Of a stretch of 64,000 bases of DNA, positions 19,325 to 43,064 are shown piece by piece (position 1 is the first letter of the stretch; each line of letters begins with the position of its first letter). The notes under the pieces were generated by a model. It saw only the letters and a program-made list of their open reading frames with translations, had not been told where the DNA came from and ran no database searches. This stretch comes from Halobacillus amylolyticus (GTDB lineage Bacteria; Bacillota; Bacilli; Bacillales; Halobacillaceae), in assembly GCF_022921115.1 (NCBI RefSeq), contig NZ_CP095075.1:1773501-1837500 (forward strand). The letters are read 5' to 3'. Made by a program: the position numbers and the translations under genes.

Positions 19325-19783
19325 TCAAAGCGGTAGATGTATTTCCCTTGTTGGGTTATAAACTTTAAGCCAATTTTCTGTTTCCGCCTTTATCCAACTT
19401 CCAAAGCGATCCAAGAATTTCAATATTTCTTCTGAATTTGATAAAGGGTTGATTGCGTACCAAAGCGCTGTTCTCATCTCTTGCTCTTTTTCAGGATAAT
19501 GCTTCGAAAATAGTTTAAAGGCTGGGAATAGATCCCTTGTGTACGACTGTTCTTGAACAATGACAAGCGCAAGACCAGCCCTCACAATAATTCTCATGAT
19601 TCATGAACAGCAATCCTTAATGTCCTCAATGTCGTCATTTCCCGTTAAATCATGCTTGGCTTTATCAATCAGAGATGTTAAATGAATGAGGTGTTCATTC
19701 GCCAAGGAGCTGTCGGGTTTATAATCAGGGAGCTTACTTATTAGGTTTTCACCAATACTAATAACCGTATGTATCCCCTTCAT
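19325..19783 (-). pseudogene. Hypothetical cassette gene interrupted by TGA
   Basis: Two parts lie in one frame: MKGIHTVISIGENLISKLPD to EDIKDCCS, a TGA at 19601-19603, then MRIIVRAGLALVIVQEQS to NPTREIHLPL. Together they would make about 152 residues, soluble and helical. I do not recognise the family. The simplest reading is one gene with a nonsense mutation. A separate 90-residue protein starting at 19597 is possible, but no ribosome-binding site is evident there. It overlaps the end of the DUF5412 gene upstream by 26 bp. Confidence 0.55.
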
Positions 19784-20293
19784 CTAAATTCAATATATGA
19801 TTATTTATCGACACAGTATCATTACTTTCCCATTCAACATCAACGTTCTCTGTTCTTTCCTGATAATAGATTCGTTTTTTAAACCAAAGTGGTCCATTTA
19901 GTTCCCCCTTATTCCAAATGTGCCTGCTGCTCCTGCATCCCAACGGTAAAAATCAATTGTATAGTTATCATTAGGGGAATGTATTGTTTTAATTTGTTTA
20001 TTCGCTCCCATTGAAGAAGCAAAAATCGATAATGAAAACGCTAGAAAAAGGACAATGGATAGTAACAAAGACAAAATGACCGTCAACGAATTTCCTAATT
20101 TTTCCAACCAATTCGTTTTATCTTTAAAACCTTTAATTCCTAAAATAAAAGCTATGATGGAAAATAGAAAGATAATGTAAATCGGTGGTGCGATTAACCA
20201 AGTGTTGTTTATATTTGAATACAAGGAATACAAAGAAATCCCTAAACAAAGTAGTAATAAATAAAATGACCATAAATTATATTTTATTTCCAA
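19758..20293 (-). pseudogene. DUF5412-like membrane protein with one-base frameshift
   Basis: The N-terminal part (131 codons from 20293) has three to four hydrophobic helices, then TIHSPNDNYTIDFYRWDAGA and AGTFGIRGN and a stop. The adjoining frame continues GELNGPLWFKKRIYYQERTE to NLDEGDTYGY. One extra G in the five-G run at 19904-19908 restores FGIRGGELNGPLW and a protein of about 178 residues. The family is uncharacterised: a membrane anchor plus a small extracytoplasmic domain. First of the cassette-like genes read from the low-coordinate side. Confidence 0.7.
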
Positions 20294-20411
20294 ATTATAC
20301 TCCTCCTTGATGAAATCACTTCTTCAATTCATGCTATTTCTATTGTCTACTACCGATTATTTCAAAACCATGTAATTAACTCAATCCTTGCTCCAACAAA
20401 AAAAGACACCT

Positions 20412-20448
20412 ATCTTATTCCAGATAAGCGTCCGTTTGCGGAAATGAG
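20412..20448 (-). repeat. GC-core inverted repeat element 1
   Basis: Plus strand CTTATTCCAGATAAGCGTCC with right arm GTTTGCGGAA. Divergent core GCGTCC. It lies after the small gene at 20472-20678. Confidence 0.5.
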
Positions 20449-20471
20449 AGATAACTTATGAGTTCTTACAA

Positions 20472-20678
20472 TCAATCAACAAATATCGAAATCAAGAAAC
20501 TGATTCCAAAGAGGCCAAATGCAATCTGAATGATTATGTACATTGTAAATTCAAAGGCTAAAAGTTTTCTTTGCTTTTTAGTTTTTTCCAAGTGTCGTAA
20601 AAAGAAACCAGCACTAATAATAAGTATTACGTAAGAAATTGCACGTAATACTTCTGCAAAAATGACCAAGGATATCAA
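20472..20678 (-). CDS. Small two-helix membrane protein
   Basis: 68 residues, two hydrophobic segments (VILIISAGFF and MYIIIQIAFGLFGISFLISI) separated by a basic loop HLEKTKKQRK. Not recognised. AAGGGGGAGG precedes the start. Lies alone between two repeat elements. Confidence 0.5.
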   Translation of the reverse strand: MISLVIFAEVLRAISYVILIISAGFFLRHLEKTKKQRKLLAFEFTMYIIIQIAFGLFGISFLISIFVD

Positions 20679-20728
20679 ATCCTCCCCCTTGAACTATATA
20701 CCTACAATCTGATTCCCAATGGTCTGGA

Positions 20729-20781
20729 CCTTATCTTCAATTTAGGCGCTAATACTGAACTGCGCTCCTTTAATGGAATAA
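20729..20781 (-). repeat. GC-core inverted repeat element 2 (two adjacent cores)
   Basis: Plus strand CTTATCTTCAATTTAGGCGC and then AACTGCGCTCCTTTAATGGA. Two degenerate cores back to back, ending just before the stop of the next gene. Confidence 0.55.
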
Positions 20782-20786
20782 AATAG

Positions 20787-20981
20787 TTACCTTTTATTTT
20801 TATCAAATTTGACCCAAGCATAAAAGATAACTATAGCAATGATAGGGAGAAAAGAAGGGATCCAATGATACTCTATTGGTAAAGGAAAAAATAGTATTCC
20901 TGATAGTATGATTACAGGAAGCACCCCTATAAACCATATTCTTACACGTTTATTTTTAAAGCTAAGTTCGAATGCCTCCAT
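20787..20981 (-). CDS. Small two-helix membrane protein
   Basis: 64 residues with helices at about 14-34 (WFIGVLPVIILSGILFFP) and 41-58 (WIPSFLPIIAIVIFYAWV), basic C-terminus KFDKNKR. Not recognised. GAGGGGGAATG provides the ribosome-binding site. Followed directly by element 2. Confidence 0.5.
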   Translation of the reverse strand: MEAFELSFKNKRVRIWFIGVLPVIILSGILFFPLPIEYHWIPSFLPIIAIVIFYAWVKFDKNKR

Positions 20982-21056
20982 TACTCATTCCCCCTCTTGA
21001 AGTAACCTGCACCGATAGCTGTAAAAACAATAAGGCAGACTGAACATAGGCAGCTA

Positions 21057-21101
21057 GTTATTCAATTTTTGCGCCCCTTAAGACTCGATATCAAGATAAT
21101 G
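21057..21101 (-). repeat. GC-core element 3 with GACTCG/TCAAGATAAT module
   Basis: Plus strand TTATTCAATTTTTGCGCCCC then TTAAGACTCGATATCAAGAT. Canonical core plus the second conserved module found again at 31.7-31.8 and 35.9 kb. It immediately follows the lipoprotein gene. Confidence 0.75.
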
Positions 21102-21103
21102 TC

Positions 21104-22393
21104 CTACTTGTCTAGATTTGTAAGCTCAAATGATCGAACGACTTTTAAATAACTTTCTAACAATTCGTCATACTTTGGGGCATCAAAAGCAATATCAAAA
21201 GTGACTTCATACACATGACCGTCAACTTCCGTTAAAAACCAGTATTCTTCATAGCCATCAAATTCGACTCGAACGCCAGTCGTGAACACACCTGTTTCGA
21301 AACCTTCCTTTTCGTGTAAATACGTGATCGACCGAGCGTAGTCATGCTGATAGGCAACAAAATCACTAAGCTGCTTCGTTCGCATCTCCTCTTCCCGGTT
21401 TCTGGCATTTTCCTGCTTTGCGACGCGGACAATTAATTCCGAACTGTTTAAGCTAAAATGCTCTCTTTCTATGGATTCTTCATAAATCGTGTCAAACGTA
21501 TAACGGTAGGTATGGAAGGTTGGAAATGAGTACCTGAAAGTGGCAGCTTCCGGTATTTCAAAGGAATAACCTACTTCGGGATAGCTCACTTTAAGATTCT
21601 CTGCAGGTTCATAGGACAATTGGGTAGGTTCATCTAGAACTGGGTTATTTTTAAACTCTTCCTCTTTGTATGTCATTGTTTTTACAGAAGCCAGCATAGG
21701 CTCAAACAGCTTTTCTTTCATTTTTGGGGGGATCGACAAGGTAGCTTGAACATAAGCCTTATCAAGTTTCCCAAACAATTCGTAATAAATGACGCCTTGT
21801 TCCGATTCGTGTTCAACCATATAGGTGAAAGGTTTGAGATCATAGTCTTTATTGGTGTAAACAGTAGGATCGCCCTCCAACCTCTCTATTGAATTATCTT
21901 TCATTTCTTCAATATGCTCTTCAGACTTTTCTTCTACCTTTTGCGTTACATCTTCCGTGATCTCTTGGATTTCAGCTTCTGTAAAATCCTCACCCAAAGA
22001 GAAATATTCTTGCATATAGACATAACTATTTTTATTCATCGGTCTAATATCAATCGTCGGCACTTCTTTTTGAAGACTTTCTGTAGTTGTCTCAAGTGTA
22101 AATTGAAATTCGTTTGCTGAGGGCTGATGCCAAAAAAACATTCTTTCTTCGGTCGTACTTATTACATATTTTGAAATCCTTTCGAAAGAATCATCAACCG
22201 TTAGCTGATAAGTATGTGGAGCTAACCAATTTCTTTTGTCCTGTGTATCCTGTTCTTGTTTGAACTCATAAGTTGTTATGGTTGTTTCATCATTCTCGCT
22301 AGTCTTTTCTGTGTCATCTGTTTCCACTTTCTCAGCTGTAGAACAAGCACATAGAAATAATAGTCCCAAAAAAATAAGTCTGGTCTTTTTCAT
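21104..22393 (-). CDS. Putative lipoprotein of unknown function
   Basis: 429 residues from the ATG at 22393, behind AGGAG. The signal MKKTRLIFLGLLFLCAC ends in a lipobox Cys, then a Thr/Glu-rich spacer and a mainly beta extracytoplasmic domain rich in aromatic residues (YEPAENLKVSYPEVGYSFEI, HTYRYTFDTIYEESIEREHF). I do not recognise a named domain. Predicted anchored to the outer face of the membrane. It is among the longest genes of the array and, like most others there, is followed by a GC-core element. Confidence 0.7.
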   Translation of the reverse strand: MKKTRLIFLGLLFLCACSTAEKVETDDTEKTSENDETTITTYEFKQEQDTQDKRNWLAPHTYQLTVDDSFERISKYVISTTEERMFFWHQPSANEFQFTLETTTESLQKEVPTIDIRPMNKNSYVYMQEYFSLGEDFTEAEIQEITEDVTQKVEEKSEEHIEEMKDNSIERLEGDPTVYTNKDYDLKPFTYMVEHESEQGVIYYELFGKLDKAYVQATLSIPPKMKEKLFEPMLASVKTMTYKEEEFKNNPVLDEPTQLSYEPAENLKVSYPEVGYSFEIPEAATFRYSFPTFHTYRYTFDTIYEESIEREHFSLNSSELIVRVAKQENARNREEEMRTKQLSDFVAYQHDYARSITYLHEKEGFETGVFTTGVRVEFDGYEEYWFLTEVDGHVYEVTFDIAFDAPKYDELLESYLKVVRSFELTNLDK

Positions 22394-22471
22394 AATTACA
22401 CTCCTACACATATAGTCCTATTATTGTAACATCTCTCTCTAAACGTTGGTTAAAAGAAAGAGGCGACTATC

Positions 22472-22505
22472 TATTACTGGATAATCGCGCTCCGTTTGCT
22501 TAATC
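22472..22505 (-). repeat. GC-core element 4
   Basis: Plus strand TATTACTGGATAATCGCGCT then CCGTTTGCTTAATC. Core GCGCTCC, arms imperfect. Lies between the HAD and lipoprotein genes. Confidence 0.55.
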
Positions 22506-22583
22506 TACAACGTCTTTTATGTTCTTTTTACGTTAGAACCATTTTGAATACCACGTTGGAGTCCGAAACTCCAGGGTTGCTTA

Positions 22584-23258
22584 CTATGTAAAATAACTTA
22601 ATAGCCTATCAAAAGAATTAATCTCGGCATATGGTTTTAATACAGTATCATTCTTGATCATGTGAGGATTGAACCATATGCCGTTTATATTTGCATTTTG
22701 ACAACCACCAATATCCTTTTCTATGTTATCTCCAACGAATAATGCAGATTCCGGTTGCACATCAAGCTTATTTAATGCTAATTCAAATATACGTTTGTCA
22801 GGTTTACTAAATCCAACTTCTTCAGAAATAATTATTATATCAAAACAACTATTTAAATTAGTATTCATTATTTTGGCTTTTTGTCTCTGAGTTGAGCCGT
22901 TTGTTATAACTGCAACTTTAACTTGCTTCTTTATAGCATTTACGACACTCATAGTACTTTGGCTTATAGTAAAACATTGAGGGAAATTATTATTCCAAAA
23001 ATCCTGAATGTAATTGCGTGGCAATCTATATTTTGGTGGAAATTCATCAAAAAATGATTCCAAAACCTTGGTTTTATCACCATAGCCATAGCCTCTACTA
23101 TCATATTCCTTGAATTTTTGCAGCATTTCATTTTTCACTGAATGCTTAACATCCCCATAACACTTTTCTAAAATAATTAAAAACATTTTATCTACTGCCT
23201 CATCCCTATCAAGTAAGGTATCATCTAAATCGAATAGCATTGCCTTATAACCTCTCAA
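22584..23258 (-). CDS. HAD-family phosphatase
   Basis: 224 residues, subfamily IA. Motif I is MLFDLDDTLLDRDEAV (nucleophile Asp 10 and acid/base Asp 12), motif II AVITNGSTQ, motif III Lys in GFSKPDKRIFE, motif IV FVGDNIEKDIGG. A helical cap lies between motifs I and II. A cytoplasmic small-molecule phosphatase of the YjjG/YsaA kind; substrate unknown. A stand-alone gene of the array, codon use AT-rich. Confidence 0.85.
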   Translation of the reverse strand: MRGYKAMLFDLDDTLLDRDEAVDKMFLIILEKCYGDVKHSVKNEMLQKFKEYDSRGYGYGDKTKVLESFFDEFPPKYRLPRNYIQDFWNNNFPQCFTISQSTMSVVNAIKKQVKVAVITNGSTQRQKAKIMNTNLNSCFDIIIISEEVGFSKPDKRIFELALNKLDVQPESALFVGDNIEKDIGGCQNANINGIWFNPHMIKNDTVLKPYAEINSFDRLLSYFT

Positions 23259-23340
23259 ATAACTTCACAGCCTTTCTCACATTGTTTAAATAATCTCTAG
23301 TTTGCACCAAGGAAGTTGTTCCACACTCTGTCCCTATACA

Positions 23341-23390
23341 GAAGGACCCGTTATTCGATAAACGCGACCGATTGTTTTACAATGCGCCCC
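23341..23390 (-). repeat. GC-core element 5 (double)
   Basis: Plus strand CCCGTTATTCGATAAACGCG then ACCGATTG and ACAATGCGCCCC. The second core encodes the last codons (GGC GCA TTG) and stop of the membrane gene upstream on the minus strand. Confidence 0.6.
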
Positions 23391-23697
23391 TATCCCGATA
23401 TAAAAACAACGTAAGTGCATTTAATAAAATGGTAACAATGACAAGTACTGTTGAAGCAACAGCTACACCACGCATTGTATCCATCAGAGCAGCCCAGTCT
23501 TCAATTTTTACCAAGTGAAGGTTATAAAAAATTTGTAAACATATTGCGATAGCGCAAGCGCTGAAACTGATAATAGAAAGAGCAATCCATTTCATATTCT
23601 TCTGTTTTTTATCTCCCGCAAGATTAATAATAGGAATTATCCAAGCTACTAACCCAAGTATCAAACTGCCGACGTTAAGCCAACCAGCATCAATCAT
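23377..23697 (-). CDS. Three-helix membrane protein, unknown
   Basis: 106 residues. Helices at about 6-24, 36-58 and 74-98 with a short charged loop after the first (GDKKQKNMK). Not recognised. Its C-terminus DRGAL is encoded inside repeat element 5, which suggests the gene end was remodelled when the element was joined. Confidence 0.55.
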   Translation of the reverse strand: MIDAGWLNVGSLILGLVAWIIPIINLAGDKKQKNMKWIALSIISFSACAIAICLQIFYNLHLVKIEDWAALMDTMRGVAVASTVLVIVTILLNALTLFLYRDRGAL

Positions 23698-23737
23698 ATT
23701 TCATACCACCTTCATTTTTTCTTTCTGAATTTCCCCT

Positions 23738-23786
23738 CAACAATATGGCCCGATTCAAAAAGGACGCCTTGTTCAACAAGCGACCA
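23738..23786 (-). repeat. GC-core element 6
   Basis: Plus strand CAACAATATGGCCCGATTCA then AGGACGCCTTGTTCAACAAG. Core GGCCCG. The ATATGGCCC variant recurs at element 8. Confidence 0.55.
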
Positions 23787-23803
23787 ATATCTATAAATTG
23801 GAT

Positions 23804-24064
23804 TTAAGGATTTCCATCAGTTATGTAACTAACAAAGTACCCTACAAACATAAATATAAAAAAGCTAAAGAACATAAAAGTATTAGCCACAATTAGCCAA
23901 CGTTTCTTCATAAGCGCCGCGAATACTATCCCAATTGGAGCAATAACAAAAGTCATCATCCATAGTTGACTTGGGATTTGAAAAACTATGTTCGGGATCC
24001 AAACAAGTACACAAATAAATAAACAAACCAAAGATAATACTTTAAACCTCTTTTTCTTACCCAT
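23804..24064 (-). CDS. Three-helix membrane protein, unknown
   Basis: 86 residues, basic start MGKKKRFK, then helices at about 9-30, 35-50 and 54-80. Not recognised. Preceded by AAGGGGGAG and followed by repeat element 6. Confidence 0.55.
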   Translation of the reverse strand: MGKKKRFKVLSLVCLFICVLVWIPNIVFQIPSQLWMMTFVIAPIGIVFAALMKKRWLIVANTFMFFSFFIFMFVGYFVSYITDGNP

Positions 24065-24101
24065 CTTAACACTCCCCCTTTATTTACTAAGAAGAAAAGA
24101 T

Positions 24102-24445
24102 TCATCTAAATTTACGTATGTACCTCATATAATTTAAGCCGCCATAAACCACTGTGACACTAATACCACTTATAAGAAAGCTAGAAAAATCATTCGAGAA
24201 TATAACTATTTGCACAGTAAATAGTATAAAATTGGCTGAGATTAATTCAATAGCAGTTCTTTTCATAAATCCTGCATTCTTCTTTTCTAACCAACTTTGC
24301 CCCCCCAAGCAATTACACCTATGAATGGGACAAAAGCAGTGCCAACTAAAGACATAACCAAGCCTTTCTGCAATATTATGTAACAGGTATAAAACACAAC
24401 TGCGGTTAAAACGAGATACATAATGACGTTTATAGGTGAGACCAT
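24102..24445 (-). pseudogene. Small membrane protein with one-base frameshift
   Basis: From the ATG at 24445 the frame reads MVSPINVIMYLVLTAVVFYT to FIGVIAWGGKVG and stops. Inserting one G in the seven-G run (24300-24306) reads IAWGGQSWLEKKNAGFMKRT and continues through two more helices to NYMRYIRKFR, about 114 residues with four helices. The overlap of two otherwise orphan hydrophobic frames supports a single gene. Family not recognised. Confidence 0.6.
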
Positions 24446-24575
24446 AATTAACCCTTTGCTATTAATAAGATGGTACACCCTCTAATGATACGAAGGAATA
24501 AAGAGATTCGTTTCACCAAAGTACAAAATGGAAAGTCATCCTTATTCGCCCTACACATAAAGAAAGAGCACAATT

Positions 24576-24608
24576 CATTATTTCAGAATCGCGCCCGATT
24601 ATGGAATT
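24576..24608 (-). repeat. GC-core element 7
   Basis: Plus strand ATTATTTCAGAATCGCGCCC then GATTATGGAAT. Canonical core. Arms ATTTCAGAAT and ATTATGGAAT are complementary at 8 of 10 positions. Confidence 0.7.
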
Positions 24609-24711
24609 TTACAATTTTAGATATTAATAAAACTTGCTTATTTAAGGAACTAATCATTTTTCACTTAGTAGATATCAACGATTGAAAATAGTGCAAGGTT
24701 ATAGGATCCAC

Positions 24712-25836
24712 TTAAGTTGATGGCGTATTTTCTTGGGGGTATTTTTCCAAGTAATATTTAATCGTATCAGGAAAGCCATTTGATTGCTTCATATTTGATT
24801 GCATTTTTATAACCCTTACTTTTGTAGATTGTCCCATTTTGGGAAAGTCATCTAACGCAAAACGATCACCTAGCGAAAGTATGGGATCAACATCTTCAGT
24901 ACTATCCTGATTAGTTACTATTCTTTTAAAATCGCTAACAGACCCACTCATGATCAGTTCGTCATTAAAATAGAATTCTAATTGAGTTTCTGGCCTTCTA
25001 TTTTCCTTATCTGTAATAGTTATACTTGGATGATTACGCAAATCTGTTAATGCTTCTTGAATTATTCCTATGTCAACAGGCATCGCTGTAAATTCACCTA
25101 CTCTATATTTTTCTTCGCTTTCAAACTTAATAAAAACGGGTGGTTTTTTTTCAGCTTTTTTAACTAAGGTGTCGGTGTACTCGATTACTTCAACAAGTTT
25201 TGCTGAAAAATCATATATACATTTTTCAAAAAGATGTTTAATACACATTTGCATAAACTCTACATGAGGCTCTAACCTTATGTTGTCAGGCATTCTTTCT
25301 ATATCGCTTCTCACATGTTTCCACTTTTTAAATTGTAAAAGTGCATTTTTTGTAGAAAAGAGTCCTGAAGGGGCCTTCAAACTTCTTACATATGTGTGTA
25401 AAGGAAAGCCGTAATGAACGGCATAATTTCTCATTAAGTCCATAAAACGATAAGAGATAATAGAATCATATAAGCGACTGGTTTCCTTTTGAAAATCAAT
25501 TCTGTATTTCTTCCCAAGCGCCTTGCCTAGCTCTTTTTCTCCGTAATCTATAAACATGCCAGCAGAAGTTAGATAATTTATTAATAGGCGATTTCCTTCT
25601 AACACAGCAGATTCATCATTTGATTTAGCATTACCTTTTTTTACCGAAGCCATATACTGAAGAAAAGAATTACTGTTACTTTCTGCTAAGGTAAAAATTT
25701 GTTTTAATCGAACATAGTATCTCATGAATTCTATATTCTTTATATGTTTATCATACTCAGCCTTTGGAAAATGCTCAATAATAGTTATTTGATGCTTTCC
25801 ATTAATATATTCCCTATAGCCAAACCCAAATTGCAA
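24712..25836 (-). CDS. Hypothetical protein with HEPN-like RX4H motif
   Basis: 374 residues, soluble, not matched to a named family by eye. The helical middle contains LMRNYAVHYG, with Arg136 and His141 spaced as the RX4H catalytic motif of HEPN ribonucleases. HEPN toxins cut RNA in toxin-antitoxin and phage-defence systems. The N-terminal about 100 residues are charged and the C-terminal about 140 mixed alpha/beta. The motif alone is weak evidence; a structure prediction showing a four-helix HEPN bundle would be needed. It lies between element 7 and element 8, beside intron copy 1. Confidence 0.55.
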   Translation of the reverse strand: MQFGFGYREYINGKHQITIIEHFPKAEYDKHIKNIEFMRYYVRLKQIFTLAESNSNSFLQYMASVKKGNAKSNDESAVLEGNRLLINYLTSAGMFIDYGEKELGKALGKKYRIDFQKETSRLYDSIISYRFMDLMRNYAVHYGFPLHTYVRSLKAPSGLFSTKNALLQFKKWKHVRSDIERMPDNIRLEPHVEFMQMCIKHLFEKCIYDFSAKLVEVIEYTDTLVKKAEKKPPVFIKFESEEKYRVGEFTAMPVDIGIIQEALTDLRNHPSITITDKENRRPETQLEFYFNDELIMSGSVSDFKRIVTNQDSTEDVDPILSLGDRFALDDFPKMGQSTKVRVIKMQSNMKQSNGFPDTIKYYLEKYPQENTPST

Positions 25837-25887
25837 TTGACCCCTCTCCTTTAGCTTTCTTTTATAGTACCAAATCTTTAATTATAG

Positions 25888-25947
25888 TTATTAAACAATA
25901 TGGCCCTTATATGCGATATTAGCGCTATTCCTTATTAAAGAACAGTT
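25888..25947 (-). repeat. GC-core element 8, 3' flank of intron copy 1
   Basis: Plus strand AACAATATGGCCCTTATATG then AGCGCTATTCCTTATTAAAG and AACAGTT. The last part is one arm of the element split by the intron; the other arm is at 28589. Confidence 0.6.
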
Positions 25948-34327: not shown

Positions 34328-35076
34328 CTAAAAGTATTTGCTATATAAATCCTGCCTCAACTTACCACTAAGTTGGGCATATATTTTCGTAGTCTCACTC
34401 TTCTCATGACCAAGTAAACTCGACTAGATATACGCTTAATGATGTATCTCATAAGGTCGATACTCATCCTTCTTTTAGGCTTTCTCTCCGTTATAAATAA
34501 GCAGGGATCATGGTCATCACGTTCGTCTACGTAACGCTTCAACCAAAGGGAGCAACGAGTATTGAAGTACACTTCCCGTTCCTTATCCCCTTTTCCATGT
34601 ACAATAACAGAGTTTGTGGTGAAGTTAATATCATTACGATTAAGCTTTACAACTTCTCCAATGCGACAACCGGTTGAATAAATGAATTCAAATAATGCGT
34701 TTTCCATAGAGTTTTGGCAAGCTTCTCTAAGGTGTTCAATTTCGAGTTCGGAAAGAAACTTTGGAATTCTCTTCCCTAGCTTTGGTTTTTTCAACTTAGC
34801 TGCAGGATTTTTATGAATGAATCCCTCATCAAATGTCCATTTGAATATAGATCGAATACACCGAACGCGGTGCCCTAAACTGGAGGGCTTTAAATGGTTT
34901 CCTAACTCAATAAGATAACCTTTTAACTGGTCTGTAGTTATGTCATTCATAAGCACATCACCAAAATAGCCTAGTAACAGGTTGTACTGAAAACCATACG
35001 TTTTCAAGGTTTGAGGTGAATAGCCCTCAATCTTTTTATCAAGTTGGTATTTCTCCCAAGCTTCTGATAATAACAT
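34328..35076 (-). pseudogene. Tyrosine recombinase/integrase lacking its HxxR box
   Basis: N-terminal SAM-like core-binding domain (residues 1-105, MLLSEAWEKYQLDKKIEGYS), then catalytic domain with Arg I in YSTGCRIGEVVKL and Lys in VHGKGDKEREVYF. After YIIKRISS the frame breaks. The following frame resumes at SLLGHEKSETTKIYAQLSG (box II His and the nucleophile Tyr) and ends RQDLYSKYF. The segment that should carry HxLRHxxAT, about 30-35 residues, is missing, with a net frameshift. Intact relatives are about 290-residue XerC/D-like integrases common in Bacillaceae. Catalytically dead as it stands. Confidence 0.82.
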
Positions 35077-35230
35077 TTCGCTTCACTCTCCTAAGGTTAT
35101 GAACCAAGTAATCTTGATTCTATTATTATCAGGAGGAGTAAATTTCATACTAGAGTTATTCAACAATCTAATAGTTTCACTTAATTTGTAAAGCTAAGAG
35201 TCGTTGGTACACTTGAAACGGGCTGCTCTC

Positions 35231-35261
35231 TCTAATCTGAACTGCACCTCGTTTGTTTAAC
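35231..35261 (-). repeat. GC-core element 14
   Basis: Plus strand CTAATCTGAACTGCACCTCG then TTTGTTTAAC. Divergent core GCACCTC, same variant class as element 15. Confidence 0.45.
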
Positions 35262-35291
35262 TTTCAAAAGTTTAAAACGGCAGCTTATTGG

Positions 35292-35768
35292 CTACCAAGT
35301 ATCTCCGCCAGAAGGGGGTGGCCATTCTCCTATTATTCGTCGGGTTGATGCTACCTGACCAGTATGATAACTATTGTGGTTTACAAGCATGACTAAAAAG
35401 TCACCACGAGTACCTTCGGATTTCCCGAATCCCCGTTCCTCCAGTTCCTTTTTTGCTTCGTTTTCAGCTTCCTTTAACCCTTCACTGAACTTAAAAACAG
35501 CGTCATTCCACTCGGTTTCATTTGATGGAGATGTTCCACCGGGCCAAGATTCTTCTGCATGATCTGGGAAATTGGGTACCGTTCCTTTAAGGTAATCAAG
35601 AATAAAGTCCTGCCAAAAAATCATATGATTGAGAATTTGCCAAACCGAATGCGGACATTCCTCTGGTTTTTTACCAACCACTTCCCACTGTAAACCCTCA
35701 AAGACCGATAGGGGATCAACATGGGCGTCTTCTCCATGTAGTCCATTTTGAAAGAAATAAGATGACAA
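35292..35768 (-). CDS. DinB-family protein
   Basis: 158 residues, four-helix DinB/YfiT-like fold. The putative metal site uses His in QILNHMIFW and two His in LVNHNSYHTGQV. DinB proteins include thiol transferases and stress-induced proteins of mostly unknown substrate. Cytoplasmic. Stands between elements 14 and 15. Confidence 0.82.
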   Translation of the reverse strand: MSSYFFQNGLHGEDAHVDPLSVFEGLQWEVVGKKPEECPHSVWQILNHMIFWQDFILDYLKGTVPNFPDHAEESWPGGTSPSNETEWNDAVFKFSEGLKEAENEAKKELEERGFGKSEGTRGDFLVMLVNHNSYHTGQVASTRRIIGEWPPPSGGDTW

Positions 35769-35790
35769 AAATAACCCTCCCTATCATTAT

Positions 35791-35835
35791 TGAATAAAGT
35801 TTTTATTCGGGTACCGCGCCTCGTTTGTTGAACTG
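35791..35835 (-). repeat. GC-core element 15
   Basis: Plus strand TTTTTATTCGGGTACCGCGC then CTCGTTTGTTGAACTG. Core GCGCCTC. It touches the stop codon of the glyoxalase remnant. Confidence 0.55.
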
Positions 35836-35905
35836 CTAAGGTGCTACAAGTTCCACTTTTATTCTGTCAGGGTCTTCAAAATAAACAGCAAGCGCAAATC
35901 CTTTA
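35836..35905 (-). pseudogene. VOC/glyoxalase-family 3' fragment
   Basis: About 23 codons, NKGFALAVYFEDPDRIKVEL then VAP and a stop, which is the last beta-strand and metal-ligand Glu region of VOC (glyoxalase/bleomycin-resistance) proteins. The rest of the gene is absent and element 16 lies directly upstream, so the cassette was cut at the repeat. Confidence 0.6.
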
Positions 35906-35952
35906 TTCCGGAAATGCTCTCCTTATACGGAAGACTCGATTTCAAGATAATC
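35901..35952 (-). repeat. GC-core element 16 with second module
   Basis: Plus strand TTATTCCGGAAATGCTCTCC then TTATACGGAAGACTCGATTT and CAAGATAATC. The module matches elements 3 and 13; the core has drifted to GCTCTCC. Confidence 0.6.
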
Positions 35953-36037
35953 TTAAATACATAGCCATTTGCTGTTTTGCTTTCCTAATTTGGAATATCA
36001 ACAAACTCCTATTAGCTGGTATTCCGGAATAGTGTAT

Positions 36038-36553
36038 TTACAACACCTCTGTTACAATTCCTTCTTCAACTCCAAATTGGATAAGGCCTTCGTAAGGGTC
36101 ACCAGGAATGTCTAACAGTGTACAAAATGCTGGTTCGGTCTTGTATCCTTGCATTTTAAGATTTATCACTTTCTCTTTAAGAATGGGGTCTTTTTTTAAT
36201 AGTTTGTATTCTATTAACATATGGAGATATGCATTTTGTTTCTGTACAGGTTGAGATTGACCAAACAACTCAAACTCAAAATTACTGAAGAAAAAATTTG
36301 CTTTAACGACCTGGTTACCTCTTATAGTTGCTCTTTTCAGCGTGAAATTGTCTTTATTATTGTATAGAGTTTGTAGCCGTTCTTCAAAATGATCTAAATC
36401 TTGTACTTCCATAACAATGTCTAGGTCTGATCCTACTACATCTATACCGATGGGCAGAGTTCCGCATAGAACTGGATTGTATGTACTTAAGTCATTACAA
36501 ATATCCAGTTCCTTGATTGCTGCATAAGCTTTTTGCTGCTTTTTACTTCCCAT
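36038..36553 (-). CDS. DUF4269 family nucleotidyltransferase-like protein
   Basis: 171 residues from the ATG at 36553 (GAGGGG six bases upstream). A longer frame to 36691 would begin inside intron copy 2 and is artificial. The motif VLCGTLPIGIDVVGSDLDIV is the GT/S..DxD pattern of the nucleotidyltransferase fold seen in DUF4269. Substrate unknown. The intron sits just upstream of this gene, so its transcription may depend on readthrough or splicing. Confidence 0.78.
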   Translation of the reverse strand: MGSKKQQKAYAAIKELDICNDLSTYNPVLCGTLPIGIDVVGSDLDIVMEVQDLDHFEERLQTLYNNKDNFTLKRATIRGNQVVKANFFFSNFEFELFGQSQPVQKQNAYLHMLIEYKLLKKDPILKEKVINLKMQGYKTEPAFCTLLDIPGDPYEGLIQFGVEEGIVTEVL

Positions 36554-36618
36554 TTTCATCCCCTCAAATAAATTAATCAATGCAGCACCTTCCTCACTTG
36601 AAGATATAACCTTTAGGC

Positions 36619-36640
36619 CGTTTCTTGTTCCAGAAAAGTT
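36619..36640 (-). repeat. GC-core element 17, 3' flank of intron copy 2
   Basis: Plus strand CGTTTCTTGTTCCAGAAAAG then TT. Left arm of the element split by the intron; the right arm is at 39282. Confidence 0.6.
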
Positions 36641-39281
36641 AGCAATAGGTAAGCGTTTGATGTTATCTCCGGCTTTTCCCCTGCTCCACACCGAACGTGC
36701 TAGTTTCCCAGCATTCGGCGCTCCATCTAACGATATGTACTAGATTATAAGTTCCTTGTTACTCTTCGAGACGGGATGATTCAATTTGATCCAGCTCACA
36801 TACCTTTCGGTATTGGTTGATCTTCTCGAGCTTAAATTGATTAACCCCTAACTTGTAGAGGAAAAACTTAATCCTTTTAGCATCCTTCATATGAATTAAT
36901 TGATGAACATCTTCATGGAGGATTCGAAGGTTACGGAACTGGTCGCTTCCTCCAAGATGTTTCGGTATGTAATGGTGACAATGGACATTATAGGAGTACA
37001 AGTATTGTCCTGTAATTTCACATTTCCCCATCTTCATACTGTATCGACTAATCCTGTTATCCAAGTATTCAACACTTCGATTTGGTAGGGTAGCCTTCAT
37101 TAAGAAACTAACTTCCTTTTGAATATCGGGTCGCAGTTTCTTATACAAGTTTTCCCTACCCTTCTTTGTATAAAGCGAAAGCTTTGGACTGAAGTTCATA
37201 GTATTGACCGTTTTAACACCGCCAATGGGAAAAAGATACATATCTCTTATTCTAAACGTTTTCGTCCCTAAGCTAAAAAGCTTTTTATAAATCGGGGGTG
37301 GATTAAATGGATGCTCCTGTTTTCCAACTGGTCGAAGACGGTTATACAGGAATGGTTTAAGATCGAATGCAAGACGTGAGAACTCCAGGTTTACATGTGT
37401 CGCTCGGTTGAAGTAGTGATGGATTCCTAAAACAAAACTATTATAACGGTGTACATTTTCGGCGGTTGGAGAAGCCTTCATTCTTCGAATGAGTTTTTTG
37501 GCTTCCTGTTTCATTTTTTCTCTTTTTGAAGAAATGATGCCTGTATGTGCCACCCGTTTCTTACCCTTTTTATTCGCACGAATAGTGAAACCTAAGAACT
37601 CAGATTCTCGTTTTCTCAAGTTTACAATTTGAGATTTCTCAGGAGAGATGTCCAGCTTTAAGCGCTCTTTTAAGTAAAGTCGTACCGCATGGTACCACCG
37701 TTGAGCAATCTTTCCATCTCGACATAGGATTTTGAAATCATCGGCGTACCTAACCAAGTATCCCTCTTTCAAATTTGTTCGTTTTCTAGCCTGCCTTTTA
37801 GAATCATCAGAACTGTATGATTTGGTAAGAGGAAATACCTCCCATTGGCCTGCAACCCATTGGTCCAGGTCATTTAAAACCACGTTTGATAGTAGAGGGG
37901 ATAAAATTCCACCTTGCGGGGATCCTTTCTCTGGTACGCCTTCTCCATCAATTTCTGACTTTATCATTTTCGAGATACAAGTAAGAACCTTGCGGTCATG
38001 AATACCCATATTCCAAAGCTGTTTATTTAACAATGAGTGATTTACATTATCAAAGAAGCTCTTAATATCTATATCAACCACAAAATGAAATTGCGCTTGA
38101 TTAATCAAGTATTGTATCCTAGCCATAGCATGATGAGCAGACCGGAGAGGTCTGAACCCGTAGCTATGCTTGAAAAACTGAGATTCTACAATAGGTTCGA
38201 GAACTTGTTTGAAACATTGTTGGATGATTCTATCCAAGATACATGGAATCCCAAGAGGTCTCCATTTACCATTTTCTTTTTCAGTCCATTCTCTGCGAAC
38301 TTTCTTCGGGTGATAATTTCTTAGTTTGGTCCGTACTTCTGTAACGAGTTCATTTTCTGATAGTTCTTTCATGTCGTCGATGGTTTTCCCATCGGTACCT
38401 GGTGTTTTAGAACCTTTATTGGTTTTTATCATGCGAAAAGCGAGGAGGATGTTTTCTCTTGATATGATGGTGTCATAGAGATGAGAAAATACTTGTACTC
38501 GGCTCGCTTTTTCGTATAGTTCTGTAAATGTCTCCGTCATATTGTAATAATCCCAGTTTCGTAACGTTGGCACTGTGGCATCCCTCCTTATGGAGTAATG
38601 TTCCCACGTTCCTACCCGATCGGTGCCATTCACATTAGGAAAATAATCGTTTCATTCATTAGACTTGGGGTTGTTCCTCCACTCCCGTTACAGGAGGTTC
38701 ATCAGTCATACCCCTACCCTCACAAGGATAAATGCTTTTCAGCATAACTTTATAGCAAACGTTTCGGGTGACAGCCCTTGATTCAACGTTCCTTGCTTTC
38801 CAAGTCCCTTACAACGTAGCTATCCTTACTAACATAGGTGCTTCCTTTAAGCCTGTGAGCTAGATACCGCCATGGTTCGGTATAGCGTCTTTCAGAGGGC
38901 GCAATTTTACTCCACACCACTCACCCCATCGTGAGATGGGACATAAGTTTCCTTATGTTCGAATCTTTAGACCCTTACATTCGGAAGTTCGTCAGTTCCT
39001 ATTTCAAAGAACTATTCTCACCTTATCCAGTTTTTCAGCCGTGCGGCATATCCGTTAGCATACCTTTTCATAAGAATGGCTTCAGCCTTCGTTCTGCCGA
39101 ATCCACCTGTGCTTCATACCCTAAGACCTGTCAGCCTTAACGCATGCAGGAGTATTGACGGGATGGTTTCAGGAAACATGGTTCCGTCATTCCCATCCTC
39201 CGTTGCAAAGTTGAAATTTTAAATGCTTAAAACTTCCTGTATTTTCACGCTGAAAAGCGTTTATAACAGAACTTGTCGCGC
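36641..39281 (-). mobile_element. Group II intron, copy 2 (2641 bp)
   Basis: Same length and, wherever I compared, same sequence as copy 1, including the intron-encoded protein and its frames. Boundaries by comparison with copies 1 and 3. Identity implies very recent movement or gene conversion. The 5' flank (17 bases) is also the same as at copy 1, consistent with recognition of the element's arm by exon-binding sequences. Confidence 0.87.
36759..38573 (-). CDS. ltrA: Group II intron reverse transcriptase/maturase (copy 2)
   Basis: Protein identical to copy 1: RT domain with RYADDFKIL, maturase region, C-terminal HNH endonuclease. Start taken at the GTG 38573 behind AAGGAGG. Intact, so either copy could mobilise both. 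Confidence 0.92.
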   Translation of the reverse strand: MPTLRNWDYYNMTETFTELYEKASRVQVFSHLYDTIISRENILLAFRMIKTNKGSKTPGTDGKTIDDMKELSENELVTEVRTKLRNYHPKKVRREWTEKENGKWRPLGIPCILDRIIQQCFKQVLEPIVESQFFKHSYGFRPLRSAHHAMARIQYLINQAQFHFVVDIDIKSFFDNVNHSLLNKQLWNMGIHDRKVLTCISKMIKSEIDGEGVPEKGSPQGGILSPLLSNVVLNDLDQWVAGQWEVFPLTKSYSSDDSKRQARKRTNLKEGYLVRYADDFKILCRDGKIAQRWYHAVRLYLKERLKLDISPEKSQIVNLRKRESEFLGFTIRANKKGKKRVAHTGIISSKREKMKQEAKKLIRRMKASPTAENVHRYNSFVLGIHHYFNRATHVNLEFSRLAFDLKPFLYNRLRPVGKQEHPFNPPPIYKKLFSLGTKTFRIRDMYLFPIGGVKTVNTMNFSPKLSLYTKKGRENLYKKLRPDIQKEVSFLMKATLPNRSVEYLDNRISRYSMKMGKCEITGQYLYSYNVHCHHYIPKHLGGSDQFRNLRILHEDVHQLIHMKDAKRIKFFLYKLGVNQFKLEKINQYRKVCELDQIESSRLEE

Positions 39282-39298
39282 GCGCCCGATTGCTTAAC
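39282..39298 (-). repeat. GC-core element 17, 5' flank of intron copy 2
   Basis: Plus strand GCGCCCGATTGCTTAAC. On the minus strand GTTAAGCAATCGGGCGC joined across the intron to TTGCTAAC restores an 8-bp-arm inverted repeat. Confidence 0.78.
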
Positions 39299-39302
39299 AG
39301 GC

Positions 39303-39713
39303 TCATTGTATTTTATATTCACATAAAAACCGTTCCACACTTGGATACTTTTCACCCAAGCTTGTTATATTAAATCCATAATTCTCATAAAACTCTACTG
39401 CGTCCAAATCCGTTTCAGCAAAAATACTACTTAATAAGTGTTTATCGCAAACGAAGTCAATCATTTTACTACCTATCTTACTTCCTCTTTCAAGTGGAGA
39501 GACAGCAATATGTTTAATTTCACAAATGTTTGCACTAACAAAGTCAATACCAATACATCCAACTATCACTCCATTGAGTTCAATTACATACAACTTTCTA
39601 TTAGTTGATTGAATGTACTTTTCATATTCTTGTTCAATTCTTTTTTCAGAAGTGGCATGGGATAACAGCTCTCTTATTTTTGGGTGGATGGTCATTGAAT
39701 CAATCTTTTTCAT
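39303..39713 (-). CDS. GNAT-family N-acetyltransferase
   Basis: 136 residues from the ATG at 39713. Typical GNAT core: strand VIVGCIGIDF, ICEIKHIAVSPLERGSKIGS (motif A, pyrophosphate loop in variant form) and AVEFYENYGFNITSLGEKY (motif B). Substrate unknown. The stop lies 4 bp from the element that houses intron copy 2. Confidence 0.8.
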   Translation of the reverse strand: MKKIDSMTIHPKIRELLSHATSEKRIEQEYEKYIQSTNRKLYVIELNGVIVGCIGIDFVSANICEIKHIAVSPLERGSKIGSKMIDFVCDKHLLSSIFAETDLDAVEFYENYGFNITSLGEKYPSVERFLCEYKIQ

Positions 39714-39786
39714 AATCACCGGCCTTTTTAATAATTAATTAATTCTAAGCGAAAGGCATTTCTCCTTCTTCAATTAAATGGCACTT

Positions 39787-39827
39787 TAAATAATTCTGCA
39801 GAATCGCGCCCCTATTCTCGAATAAGG
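39787..39827 (-). repeat. GC-core element 18
   Basis: Plus strand TAATTCTGCAGAATCGCGCC then CCTATTCTCGAATAAGG. Core GCGCCCC, outer arms TTATTC-like on both sides. Between two GNAT genes. Confidence 0.7.
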
Positions 39828-39845
39828 AATATGTCAGCAGACATT

Positions 39846-40280
39846 TCATTTAATTAAAGTTTTATAAAAACCAGTAGATTTCCCTTTATACCCTCTCCGT
39901 TTATAAAACTCGTGTGCTGCTTTCCTTTCTTCTCGATTTCCACTATTTAAAACAACGGTTGTTATACCTTTCCTTTCACACCAATCTTCTGCTTGTTGAA
40001 TAAGTTGTTCTCCTATCCCCTTATTTCGATAGTTTGAATGAACAACCATCGCTATAATTCTCCCAACATCATCATCGGAAACATAGGAATATTCTATATG
40101 CATTCCAAGCATACCTATGATTTCACCTTCTATTTCTGCCACCAAAGTATTGTAATAACAATTAGCTATGATTTTTGACATTCGTTTTTCCATCTTTTCA
40201 TATGTAGTTGAATACCCAAATTCCCCTACAATATCTGTTAATCCTTCAATATCTTCAGTGGTTGCTTTCCTTATAATCAA
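39846..40280 (-). CDS. GNAT-family N-acetyltransferase
   Basis: 144 residues from a TTG at 40280 that follows GGGGGAG; the ATG at 40319 is not preceded by a site. Starts LIIRKATTEDIEGLTDIVGE, motif A IIAMVVHSNYRNKGIGEQLI (RxxGxG loop), motif B TVVLNSGNREERKAAHEFYK with the RRGY tail. Acceptor unknown. Confidence 0.83.
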   Translation of the reverse strand: MIIRKATTEDIEGLTDIVGEFGYSTTYEKMEKRMSKIIANCYYNTLVAEIEGEIIGMLGMHIEYSYVSDDDVGRIIAMVVHSNYRNKGIGEQLIQQAEDWCERKGITTVVLNSGNREERKAAHEFYKRRGYKGKSTGFYKTLIK

Positions 40281-40391
40281 AAAATCTCCCCCATCTATTA
40301 GCTTGAATTTATATGCCACTTATTTTAGAAACTTATTTTGCAATTCTGTCCTTTAGATCAATAACAATTATTTCAAATTCCTTTCAATTGC

Positions 40392-40414
40392 ACAATACGT
40401 TATTCCAGAATAGT
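40392..40414 (-). repeat. GC-core element 19, 3' flank of intron copy 3
   Basis: Plus strand ACAATACGTTATTCCAGAAT then AGT. It matches the ACGTTATTC arm of elements 5 and 13. The other half is at 43048. Confidence 0.6.
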
Positions 40415-43047
40415 AGCAATAGGTAAGCCTTTGAGGTTATCGCCAGCTTTTCCCCTGCTCCACACGGAGCGTGCAGGTTTCCCCGCACTCCGCGTTCCAT
40501 CTAACAAAATATACTAAGTCATAAGTTCCTCGTTACTTTTTGTTTGGGATTTTTAAATCGTTTCAAGCTCACATTTCCTTCGGAAACGGTTAACCTTATT
40601 TATCATATCACCAGTAAGCTGAAACTCCTGTATAAGTTCATCAATCATCTTTATATTAGTGGCATGAATTAGCTTGTGTATCCCTTTGTGCAGGATACGA
40701 AGGTTATTAAATTGGTCGCTTCCACCAAGACTTAACGGTACATAATGGTGACAATGGACATCTGTCGCAAGCAATTCTAGGCCTGTAATTTCACATCTCC
40801 CCATTTTCATACTGTACCGACTGATGCGATTATCCATGTATTCCACACTTCGGTTTGGAAGTGTGGATTTCATTAGTGTACCTATTTCACTTTGGATGTC
40901 CGAACGTAACTTTTTGTGTATCATGTTTCTGCCTTCTTCGGTGAAAGGCGTCATTTTTGGAGTGAATCCTAAGGTCTTCACCGTTTTAACATCCGCGATT
41001 GGAAATAGATAAATACCAGCGATTTTAAATGTTTTAAAGTTATGATAATACATCTTTTTATAAGTCGGTGGTGGTTGGAACGGGTGACCATATTTACCAA
41101 CTGGTCTAAGATGGTTATAGATGAACGCACTTAAGTCATAGGCAAGACGTGAAAACTCCAAATTAACCTTGGTAGCCCTTTTGAAATACTGATGAATTCC
41201 TAAAACAAAACTGTTAAAGAGCAATGCATTCATTGCCGAAGGCGAAGCTTTGATTCTTCGAACCAGTTTCTTCGTTTCTTTCTTGATTTTGTGCTTTTTA
41301 TCTTCTTTAACACCGGTGCGGGCAACTCGCCTTTTGCCCTTTTTATCGGCACGGATAGTAAATCCTAAAAACTCTGACTCCCGTTTTCGCAAATTTACTA
41401 TTTGCGATTTTTTCGGCGAAATATCAAGATTCAGACGGTCCTTGAGGTATAGTCTTGCAGCATGATACCACTTTTGTGCCGTTTTTCCATCCTTGCAAAG
41501 AATTTTAAAGTCGTCCGCATAACGGACGATGTAGCCTTCTTTGAGGGAAGAACGCTTTTTGGCGTATCTTTCGCCAACTTTGGATTGATAAGGTTTAGTC
41601 AAAGGGAAGAACTCCCATTGTCCAGCAATCCATTGGTCAAGGTCATTAAGCACAATGTTTGCCAATAAAGTTGATAAGATGCCGCCTTGCGGCACACCTT
41701 CATTGGGCACTCCTTCATTGTCTATTTCAGCTTTCAACATTCTGCCAATACAAGCCAATACCTTTCGGTCTTGAATTCCCATGTTCCATAGTTGCTTTAT
41801 AAGCAATGTATGATTAATATGGTCAAAGAACCCTTTGATATCAACATCCACTACAAAATGAAAAGAAGATAAATTGATAAGCTGTTGAACTCTCGCCATT
41901 GCGTGGTGAGCCGAACGAAGGGGCCTAAATCCATAACTGTGGTTGTAAAATTTAGCTTCAGCAATCGGCTCAAGTACCTGTTTAAAACTTTGTTGGATGA
42001 CTCGATCCAGAATACAAGGTATACCAAGTGGCCTTTGCTTGCCATTACCTTTATCAATCCATTCTCGTCTGACTTTCTTGGGGCAGTAATTTTCCAGTTG
42101 CCTCCGGATTTTCATCACCAGTTTTTCTTCGGACCACTTTTTCAGGTCATTTATCGTTTTTCCGTCAGTTCCAGGTGTTTTGGAACCTTTATTGGATTTG
42201 ATAGTACGATAGGCGAGCAATATATTTTCTCTGCATATAATGACATCGTAAAGATGTGAAAAAGATTGTTGGTTCCCACTCTTATCATACAAATCAGTAA
42301 ACGTCTTAGTCATATCGTAATAATCCCAATATCGTAAAGCTTGCACTGTGGCATCCCCCTATAGGAGTGATGTTCCCACGTTCCTACCCGACCGGTGCAA
42401 TGCACGTATGGAAAATAACTTTTCATTTCATTAGACTTGGGGCTGTTCCTCCATTCCCATTACAGGAAATTCATCAGTCATGCCCCTACCCTCACAAGGA
42501 TAAATGTCTTTCGGCATAAGCCTTATGGCAAACGTTTCGGATGACAGTCCTTGTTTCAACGTTCCTTGCTTTCCAAGTCCCTTACAACCTAGCTATACAT
42601 ACTGAACTTAGGTGTCCCCTGGAAGCCTGTGAGCTGGATACCGCCTTTGTCCGGTATAGCGTGTTTCATAGGGCCAATTCTTACTATACACCACTCACCC
42701 CATCGTTGGATGGGACATAAGTTTCCCTATGTTCAAACTCTAGACCTGTATATTCGGTTATTCGTCAGTTTCATTTCTTAGAAACCATTCTCACCATATC
42801 CAGTTTTTCAGCCGTTGGGCATATCCGTTGGCATACCTTCTCCGAAGGAGTGGCTTCAGCCTTCGTTCTGCCTAATCTACCTGTACTTCAGACCCTGTAA
42901 CCTGTCAGTCACAACGCATGCAGGAGTATTGACGGGATAGTTTCGGGAAACATGGTTCCGTCATTCCCATCCTCGGTTGTAAAGTTGGAATCCATCTGAT
43001 TCCCCGCAGTTCACGTCATGGGACGTTTATAGCGGAACTTGTCGCGC
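40415..43047 (-). mobile_element. Group II intron, copy 3, diverged (about 2633 bp)
   Basis: Clearly homologous to copies 1 and 2 over its whole length, with the same GCGCGACAAG 5' end and ACCTATTGCT 3' end, but many substitutions. It belongs to the same lineage and, like them, splits a GC-core element, so target choice is conserved over time. Confidence 0.85.
40553..42346 (-). CDS. ltrA: Group II intron reverse transcriptase/maturase (copy 3, diverged)
   Basis: 597 residues, GTG start at 42346. RT active site VRYADDFKILC, block VPQGGILSTLLANIVLNDLD, maturase region, and HNH tail CEITGLELLATDVHCHHYVP. Substitutions are spread through the protein without stops, so selection has kept it functional. 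Confidence 0.9.
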   Translation of the reverse strand: MQALRYWDYYDMTKTFTDLYDKSGNQQSFSHLYDVIICRENILLAYRTIKSNKGSKTPGTDGKTINDLKKWSEEKLVMKIRRQLENYCPKKVRREWIDKGNGKQRPLGIPCILDRVIQQSFKQVLEPIAEAKFYNHSYGFRPLRSAHHAMARVQQLINLSSFHFVVDVDIKGFFDHINHTLLIKQLWNMGIQDRKVLACIGRMLKAEIDNEGVPNEGVPQGGILSTLLANIVLNDLDQWIAGQWEFFPLTKPYQSKVGERYAKKRSSLKEGYIVRYADDFKILCKDGKTAQKWYHAARLYLKDRLNLDISPKKSQIVNLRKRESEFLGFTIRADKKGKRRVARTGVKEDKKHKIKKETKKLVRRIKASPSAMNALLFNSFVLGIHQYFKRATKVNLEFSRLAYDLSAFIYNHLRPVGKYGHPFQPPPTYKKMYYHNFKTFKIAGIYLFPIADVKTVKTLGFTPKMTPFTEEGRNMIHKKLRSDIQSEIGTLMKSTLPNRSVEYMDNRISRYSMKMGRCEITGLELLATDVHCHHYVPLSLGGSDQFNNLRILHKGIHKLIHATNIKMIDELIQEFQLTGDMINKVNRFRRKCELETI

Positions 43048-43064
43048 TGGCCCTTTAACGTAAC
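43048..43064 (-). repeat. GC-core element 19, 5' flank of intron copy 3
   Basis: Plus strand TGGCCCTTTAACGTAAC. With the ACGTTATTCC half at 40396 it gives outer arms ACGTTA / TAACGT around a GGCCC core. It marks the high-coordinate edge of the array. Confidence 0.65.

Follow-up and report, generated by a model that had tools for sequence, protein, structure and literature searches.

A probable decayed gene-cassette array in Halobacillus amylolyticus and its link to a proposed Xer-like recombinase system of Bacillaceae

A 64-kb stretch of the genome of Halobacillus amylolyticus (contig NZ_CP095075.1, positions 1,773,501 to 1,837,500), called the window below, contains at positions 19325-43068 a block of small genes separated by short repeated elements. 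This block is most probably a decayed array of a gene-cassette system that is distributed among Bacillaceae and relatives and uses a dedicated recombinase acting on core sites. The sites, their lock to one strand, their association with a recombinase and scrambled cassettes with ends at sites were all found by computation. The last three give good support to the proposal of a first-pass annotation of this DNA, namely an unfamiliar cassette-capture system of Bacillaceae.

In the window, 25 open reading frames (ORFs) between 19325 and 42346 were taken as genes. All of them are on the minus strand, mostly one per unit, which bears out the earlier description of about twenty unrelated minus-strand genes; shorter plus-strand ORFs of the ORF list overlap them. 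Three array ORFs are intron reverse transcriptases, because about 8 kb of the block belongs to three group II introns. The earlier picture of an array with elements holds, with the corrections that these 8 kb are introns and that a tyrosine recombinase gene is present. Pfam supported four GNAT acetyltransferases, a HAD hydrolase, an LD-carboxypeptidase, a DinB-family protein, DUF4269 and DUF5412, and several small ORFs had no family match. The GNAT, HAD and DinB parts of the cargo listed in the first-pass annotation were therefore recovered by Pfam, and VOC had no Pfam match among the ORFs tested. Putative defence genes were not recovered: with PADLOC, the intron reverse transcriptase was the sole match among 10 window proteins, without any defence system, and one HEPN-like Pfam match scored under its cutoff.

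The repeated element is a real feature of this DNA. The sequence TTCAATTnTTGCGCCC, with up to three mismatches, has seven matches in the window, five of them in the block, compared to a mean of 2.3 in shuffled sequences, none of which reached seven (0/100). A weight matrix trained on other genomes (threshold 11.64, about one chance match per 50 kb per strand) gave 10 minus-strand and 2 plus-strand matches in the 64 kb, all within 24.6-43.1 kb; the minus-strand match at 30856 is located within a gene and is probably due to chance. The best-scoring copies are those at 30419, 28609, 39302, 29928 and 24611, and the remaining ones have drifted. Elements at 21055-21090, 20748-20783 and 31722-31757 are visible by eye and score below the matrix threshold, in agreement with the earlier remark that copies drift. 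The reported contact of an element with the stop codon at 29927 was also found.

The recombinase gene of the window is broken. Its similarity to intact relatives stops near residue 221, and the HPHQLRH stretch is absent. A second copy in the same genome (C1:904012-904692) contains stops, and further matches there are only about 26-33% identical, so that no intact member of this family is present among the own-genome copies found. Since both copies are broken, the array in the window is probably immobile at present. Relatives of the window recombinase are mostly 280 aa long and at most 85% identical to it (best 120 of 1107). A scan of one genome per species, in which the best 80 of 510 relatives were kept, gave 79 loci in Bacillaceae and related families, encoding recombinases of 280 aa with 65-100% identity to P0001; the frame is uninterrupted over the match in 67 of these loci. 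The gene is patchily distributed among genera, is broken or multi-copy in some genomes and lies inside the array, with sites nearby in many loci. Viral contigs provided 72 relatives (36-63% identity) and few elements.

In an alignment of P0001 with 13 relatives (75-88% identical to it), R138, K162, H229, R232, H255 and Y264 are invariant in all 14 rows; we take these residues to be the catalytic set of tyrosine recombinases. The closest solved proteins by sequence are XerC-like, XerD and XerA (4a8e, 1a0p, 5hxy), and the integron integrase IntI4 in the PDB matches best only over residues 202-267. Three recombinases scored 104, 99.5 and 101.9 bits with the integron integrase model TIGR02249 (cutoff 265) and 221.9, 224.7 and 216.2 bits with the XerA-type model NF040815 (cutoff 220, reached by two). 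As TIGR02249 stays far under its cutoff and the nearest structures are Xer proteins, the protein is judged by its sequence to be Xer-like rather than IntI, though the NCBI naming touches both. The earlier statement that no integron integrase is present is thus correct for that model, and incomplete because a tyrosine recombinase, although broken, does occur in the window.

The number and strand of the elements follow this recombinase. In the 79 loci, the recombinase strand carries 85 matches to CAATCGGGC and the opposite strand 9, compared to 7, 2 and 1 in Markov-1 shuffles. The weight matrix, derived from forward matches of loci L046-L099 (consensus tnTTaTTCAACAAtCGGGc), gave on these loci 388 forward and 94 reverse matches and 18 in shuffles. 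When the recombinases were divided by identity to P0001, the 56 loci of the first group had 413 forward and 102 reverse matches (forward excess in 49, reverse excess in 2, ties in 5), a contrast somewhat inflated by the training of the matrix on forward matches of the same group. The 23 loci of the second group, which like the window were absent from the training, had 30 forward and 224 reverse matches (reverse excess in 21, forward excess in 2). Some minority-strand matches are mirrored arms of the same sites. On the recombinase tree (67 rows, 63 labelled), orientation changes 3 times, compared to 18.5 times after shuffling, and 20 opposed rows are united in a single well-supported clade; the split would be clean but for L100, L106, L098 and L092, the last two with just 3 and 5 matches.

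A survey of 348 genomes of the order with the pattern TTRTTSAACWAWCGGG (one mismatch permitted) and a recombinase cut-off of E<=1e-70 led to the same association, relatedness being ignored in both comparisons. The 72 genomes with the recombinase have a median of 8 and a mean of 15.9 elements, and the 276 without it a median of 5 and a mean of 5.6 (p=8.6e-13). At least 18 elements were found in 15/72 and 5/276 genomes, respectively. A recombinase that co-occurs with high element counts, which the first-pass annotation had recommended looking for, was therefore found.

These data also bear on the explanation that host XerC/XerD work the sites, as in the dif modules of Acinetobacter, and that the extra recombinase is a passenger. 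The sites do consist of two arms and a short centre, the recombinase is nearest in sequence to XerA, XerC and XerD, and five element-rich genomes are without the dedicated gene. Nevertheless, element number and strand follow the dedicated recombinase, and dif modules need inversely oriented, alternating sites (PMC13141974), while the sites considered here are one-way. This explanation is regarded as unlikely.

The architecture of the sites is best seen in the long array of genome G216, which is of the same genus as G280. In 120 kb of G216, 276 merged matches to AACTAAC-N6-GTTAGTT (at most four mismatches) were found. A spacer filter, picked from forward copies, was passed by 149 sites on one strand and by 4 of 295 unmerged matches on the other; because the arms mirror each other, this count measures the direction of the spacer. 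The commonest spacers are TGGCGC (84), TGGCAG (19) and GAGAGC (14). The median length of units delimited by first-type sites is 687 bp; 66 of 114 contain a single ORF of 80 aa or more and 22 contain no such ORF, and 122 of 138 ORFs of this length point along the sites. The dominant spacer bases differ between arrays, being TGG (86) and GAG (23) in C11 of G216, and GAG (45) and TGG (6) in C26 of G280.

In 21 cases in G216, another core, with a GGCA spacer, is located about 58 nt further on, and a terminator-like hairpin is seen by eye between the two. The same succession of a core with a GGCGC-type spacer, a hairpin and, about 58 nt later, a GGCAG-type core was observed in some units of L072, L082 and G216, and in these arrays the recombinase gene occupies, by eye, the same slot as the hairpin.

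Covariation of the arms was considered for 310 sites of G216 and G280, gathered by their inner letters (at most four mismatches). Inner-arm conservation is no evidence, because the inner letters served to collect the sites. The outer arms had 1386 complementary positions, compared to 1333 +/- 13 after shuffling, a small excess that is nevertheless above all 2000 shuffles (maximum 1379). Folding-based recognition would predict strong covariation, and the weak one observed favours a double-stranded tyrosine-recombinase core with inverted arms around a short asymmetric spacer over a folded site; a crossover in the spacer would join halves of different cassettes, and covariation would therefore be lost. 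The left arm is common to different genera. The suggestion of the first-pass annotation that the folded element is the recombination site is accordingly not favoured, nor is a site recognized only in folded form, but folding may have a role in recognition.

A genuine integron (IntI plus attC) so divergent that it escapes existing tools would have the same layout, and long copies of the element can be read as arm-hairpin-arm. The covariation above all shuffles, the two of three recombinases that pass NF040815, a model described as 'site-specific tyrosine recombinase/integron integrase', and the use of the sites by introns, as group IIC-attC introns target attC (PMC7923331), also point in this direction. 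The TIGR02249 scores of 104, 99.5 and 101.9 bits against 265, together with arms that are common in sequence to different genera, make such an integron highly improbable. A classical integron is not supported by the integrase model, and site covariation leans weakly against it. The system is not filed as an integron, because its recombinase falls short of the integrase model and an attC-type site is not established.

Scrambling of cassettes was studied by comparing 8 stretches of G216 with 12 of G280. Among 193 alignments, 19 reach 200 nt and 75% identity, and their order is not colinear. Ends of alignments fall within 25 nt of a site in 42 of 76 cases (null mean 5.7, maximum 14 in 2000 placements), a count inflated by the similarity among the sites themselves, because alignments extend through them and homology ends are drawn toward sites. 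L117 and L120 have in common a 2.8-kb block that includes the recombinase (98.8% identity), and both its ends are inside core-like sequence. Among six other alignments of this pair at E<=1e-3, one places 0.45 kb from the left of the block in L117 at a distance of 4 kb in L120 (77.5%), and another matches the recombinase to an additional, diverged copy of it in L120. In the second group, 44 of 60 alignments of recombinases from different genomes begin 120-61 nt ahead of the gene, and 37 of 60 end 60-99 nt after it; in 12 loci studied by pattern, a core-like match was found upstream in 7 and at 50-61 nt downstream in 8.

Group II introns parasitise the sites in the window. The three introns, about 8 kb together, are each inserted within an element. 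In all 8 copies found in the own genome (loci L233-L240, one of them on contig C2), the intron starts directly after the left core half (GGGCGC or GGGCCA), so its position in the site is fixed and its targeting looks locked to cassette sites. Group IIC-attC introns are known to use cassette recombination sites as targets (PMC7923331). The likeness lies in this target use; here the target is a core site of Bacillaceae, immediately behind whose left half the intron is inserted, and the introns of the window are oriented along the array direction.

The array has a counterpart in its own genome. A second array near C1:887-924 kb (L226, L227) contains the other broken recombinase and two intron copies, and has most of window 25932-36638 in common with the first one (8.4 kb at 99.5% identity, 2.2 kb at 99.1%, with intervening deletions). 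This array may continue further, given one more intron copy at C1:931796. In G006, a genome of the same genus, about 150 nt separate the segments that correspond to window 16952-18631 and 43165-45771, the array is absent, no matrix match occurs within 20 kb of this locus, and the DUF188 gene is located elsewhere. By eye, the 150 nt in place of the array (near C1:754000 of G006, L230) carry several right-arm-like motifs, e.g., GATTGTTAAATAACG, and for this reason the locus may not be a virgin site.

The elements could also be dispersed terminators or REP-like (repetitive extragenic palindromic) hairpins in old islands, the genes being shuffled by introns and homologous recombination. Many copies contain or precede, by eye, a terminator-like hairpin with a T run; all 8 located own-genome copies of one intron sit in elements; blocks common to the two own arrays end at introns; and element numbers are low in most genomes of the order. 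On the other side are the asymmetry of 149 to 4 over 120 kb of G216, the link between element count and recombinase presence, the spacer bases specific to each array, and homology ends at sites in G216/G280 and L117/L120, where the start of the window intron was not found. This explanation is very unlikely, and a simple terminator or REP repeat was rejected on account of the strand lock, the clustering in G216 and G280 and the recombinase association. Even scatter of elements through the chromosome, named in the first-pass annotation as an argument against its proposal, is contradicted by the same observations.

Several findings weigh against a cassette system with a dedicated recombinase, in addition to the inflation of the two counts mentioned above. 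Five genomes with at least 18 elements have no recombinase at E<=1e-70, and a low number of elements is usual among the genomes (335/348 with at least one match). With the matrix threshold lowered by 2 bits, only 33/56 recombinases of the first group have a site in the 320 nt upstream and 16/55 one in the 250 nt downstream; the second group gave 12/23 and 17/22, and a random control 158/1120. Downstream of the recombinase, several first-group loci carry a common short core, alike as far as CGGG and variable beyond it, which would be a candidate counterpart of attI, the main insertion point next to the integrase in integrons. The first group is mixed also in its alignments, 141 of 249 pairwise recombinase alignments ending at the stop codon and not at a site. 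Clean gain or loss of single cassettes, another check recommended earlier, was not found among the fetched loci, in which the 4 candidate gaps are all away from sites. A search for near-identical array plasmids provided no useful strain pair, and two P. frigoritolerans plasmids look alike, as judged from annotation tables and match counts only. Where the two own arrays have blocks in common, the outer ends of these blocks coincide with intron copies as well as with sites, so that homologous recombination between introns may explain them. Single window genes recur elsewhere, 80 of 199 other genomes having a match, in part of them to the recombinase; the 290-aa GNAT gene has 13 copies elsewhere, with site-like sequence at both ends, by eye, in only two (L251, L253), and G375 retains the order of two window genes about 1 kb apart, from which it follows that part of the array content is old or site-less.

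The following mechanism of the proposed cassette system may be suggested from the sequences. Each cassette would usually consist of one gene plus half-sites. The 280-aa Xer-like recombinase would bind inverted arms, each about 13 bp long (TTRTTsAACtAAC or TTATTCAACAATC, plus the mirrored arm), and cleavage and strand exchange would take place within the short asymmetric spacer, which is of the GGCGC, GGGCA or GGGCC type and measures 6 bp in the best arrays. The asymmetry of the spacer would give all cassettes the same orientation. Recombination between two direct sites would free a circle of one gene plus one site, and such a circular intermediate could be captured by entering a matching site in one orientation. 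The recombinase gene itself resides inside the array, co-directional with the sites in one group and opposed to them in the other, and group II introns exploit the sites as parasites.

Table 1. Features of the window (positions as in the 64-kb stretch)
Feature	Position	Strand	Evidence or remark
Cassette array, single-gene units, core sites between many	19325..43068	-	ORF calls, Pfam, matrix scan
Tyrosine recombinase gene, broken	34357..35076	-	PF00589
Core site, top window copy, after GNAT gene 30428-31300	30384..30419	-	matrix score 23.6
Core site TTCAATTATCGGGCGCAAGAATTGAATAAG, adjoins stop of 29927-30334	29894..29928	-	score 18.9
Core site after 24712-25836	24576..24611	-	score 18.6
Core site after GNAT gene 39846-40319	39790..39827	-	score 17.5
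Drifted core site	31780..31812	-	score 16.2
Core site, gap between 36038-36691 and 35292-35768	35800..35837	-	score 12.5
Drifted element after 20787-20981	20748..20783	-	score 11.1, under threshold 11.64
Element, GGGGCGC core then TTCTCGAATAACG	31722..31757	-	GCGCCC at 31734, by eye; below threshold
Element TTAAGGGGCGCAAAAATTGAATAAC after 21104-22411	21055..21090	-	repeat family D12, by eye; below threshold
Left core half CTTAAGCAATCGGGCGC, then intron 1; right half 25944-25927	28589..28609	-	score 21.0
Left core half GTTAAGCAATCGGGCGC, then intron 2; right half 36637-36620	39282..39302	-	score 19.7
Left core half GTTACGTTAAAGGGCCA, then intron 3; right half 40412-40395	43048..43068	-	score 16.0
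Group II intron 1, reverse transcriptase-HNH ORF 26066-27940	25945..28588	-	Rfam RF02004, RF00029
Group II intron 2, near-identical to intron 1	36638..39281	-	Rfam, repeat comparison
Group II intron 3, diverged copy	40413..43047	-	Rfam, repeat comparison
DUF188 gene, array flank	18704-19282	+	ORF/Pfam analysis
M14 peptidase gene, array flank	43351-45699	+	ORF/Pfam analysis

Some other observations were made in the course of this work. In first-group loci, a conserved sequence similar to CATACTAGAATCAA...TTGATTCATAGTATGGGAG is located about 60 nt before the recombinase start, beside the ribosome-binding site; a conserved hairpin before this start, likely by eye, was rejected because RNAalifold gave 0 pairs on 28 sequences. 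Among the matches listed for contig C1 of G304, elements occur as clusters and as single copies; the minus strand holds most of those at about 0-2.5 Mb and the plus strand most of those beyond 2.7 Mb, as if they were oriented relative to replication. The plasmid L199 (CP053689.1, labelled Arthrobacter citreus NEB 577) carries a group II intron and a recombinase of the second group, which faces a long series of small genes in the opposite orientation. The near matches of this plasmid come from Peribacillus, Niallia and their relatives, which casts some doubt on the organism label. Outside the array, the window contains a 101-nt repeat (56675-56775 and 63306-63406, 92% identical), the first copy of which includes TTGAATTGTTGCGCCC, an element-like sequence on the plus strand, and three tandem 48-nt coding-like repeats at 57551-57694, rich in Tyr, Lys and Cys codons.

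Compared with known systems, the arrays resemble integrons in being long and one-directional (149 versus 4 sites in G216) with mostly single-gene cassettes, in having a dedicated tyrosine recombinase and sites alike within an array, and in the group II introns inserted in these sites. They differ in the Xer-like recombinase, which stays under the cutoff of the IntI model, in the location of its gene inside the array, and in the core, a short two-arm sequence with weak arm covariation. With the Acinetobacter dif (pdif) modules they share genes between short Xer-type sites and shuffling of modules. In those modules, C and D types alternate between inversely oriented sites and host XerCD acts (PMC13141974), whereas here there are a dedicated recombinase, one-way sites and chromosomal arrays of >100 kb. 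XerA, XerC and XerD are the closest solved relatives by sequence, but the present proteins of 280 aa are patchy across genera, sometimes broken or multi-copy, and tied to cassette arrays.

In our opinion, the system can be read as a third cassette platform beside integrons and the Acinetobacter dif modules. It is rather probable that Bacillaceae and related Firmicutes evolved their own integron-independent platform, with an Xer-derived recombinase that is itself carried as a cassette, double-stranded sites, arrays of >100 kb and cassettes moved between genera. A literature search, restricted to open papers, showed no Bacillaceae cassette system among the titles listed, and an earlier description is possible. 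According to the IntegronFinder 2.0 survey (PMC9024848), integrons are nearly absent from Firmicutes, with one complete case (Limnochorda pilosa) and a few CALINs (clusters of attC sites lacking integrases). If the proposal is true, a separate platform would explain how Bacillaceae assemble large stores of small accessory genes, a simple pair of recombinase and site would become testable in Bacillus subtilis, and the integron way of life would appear to have arisen more than once.

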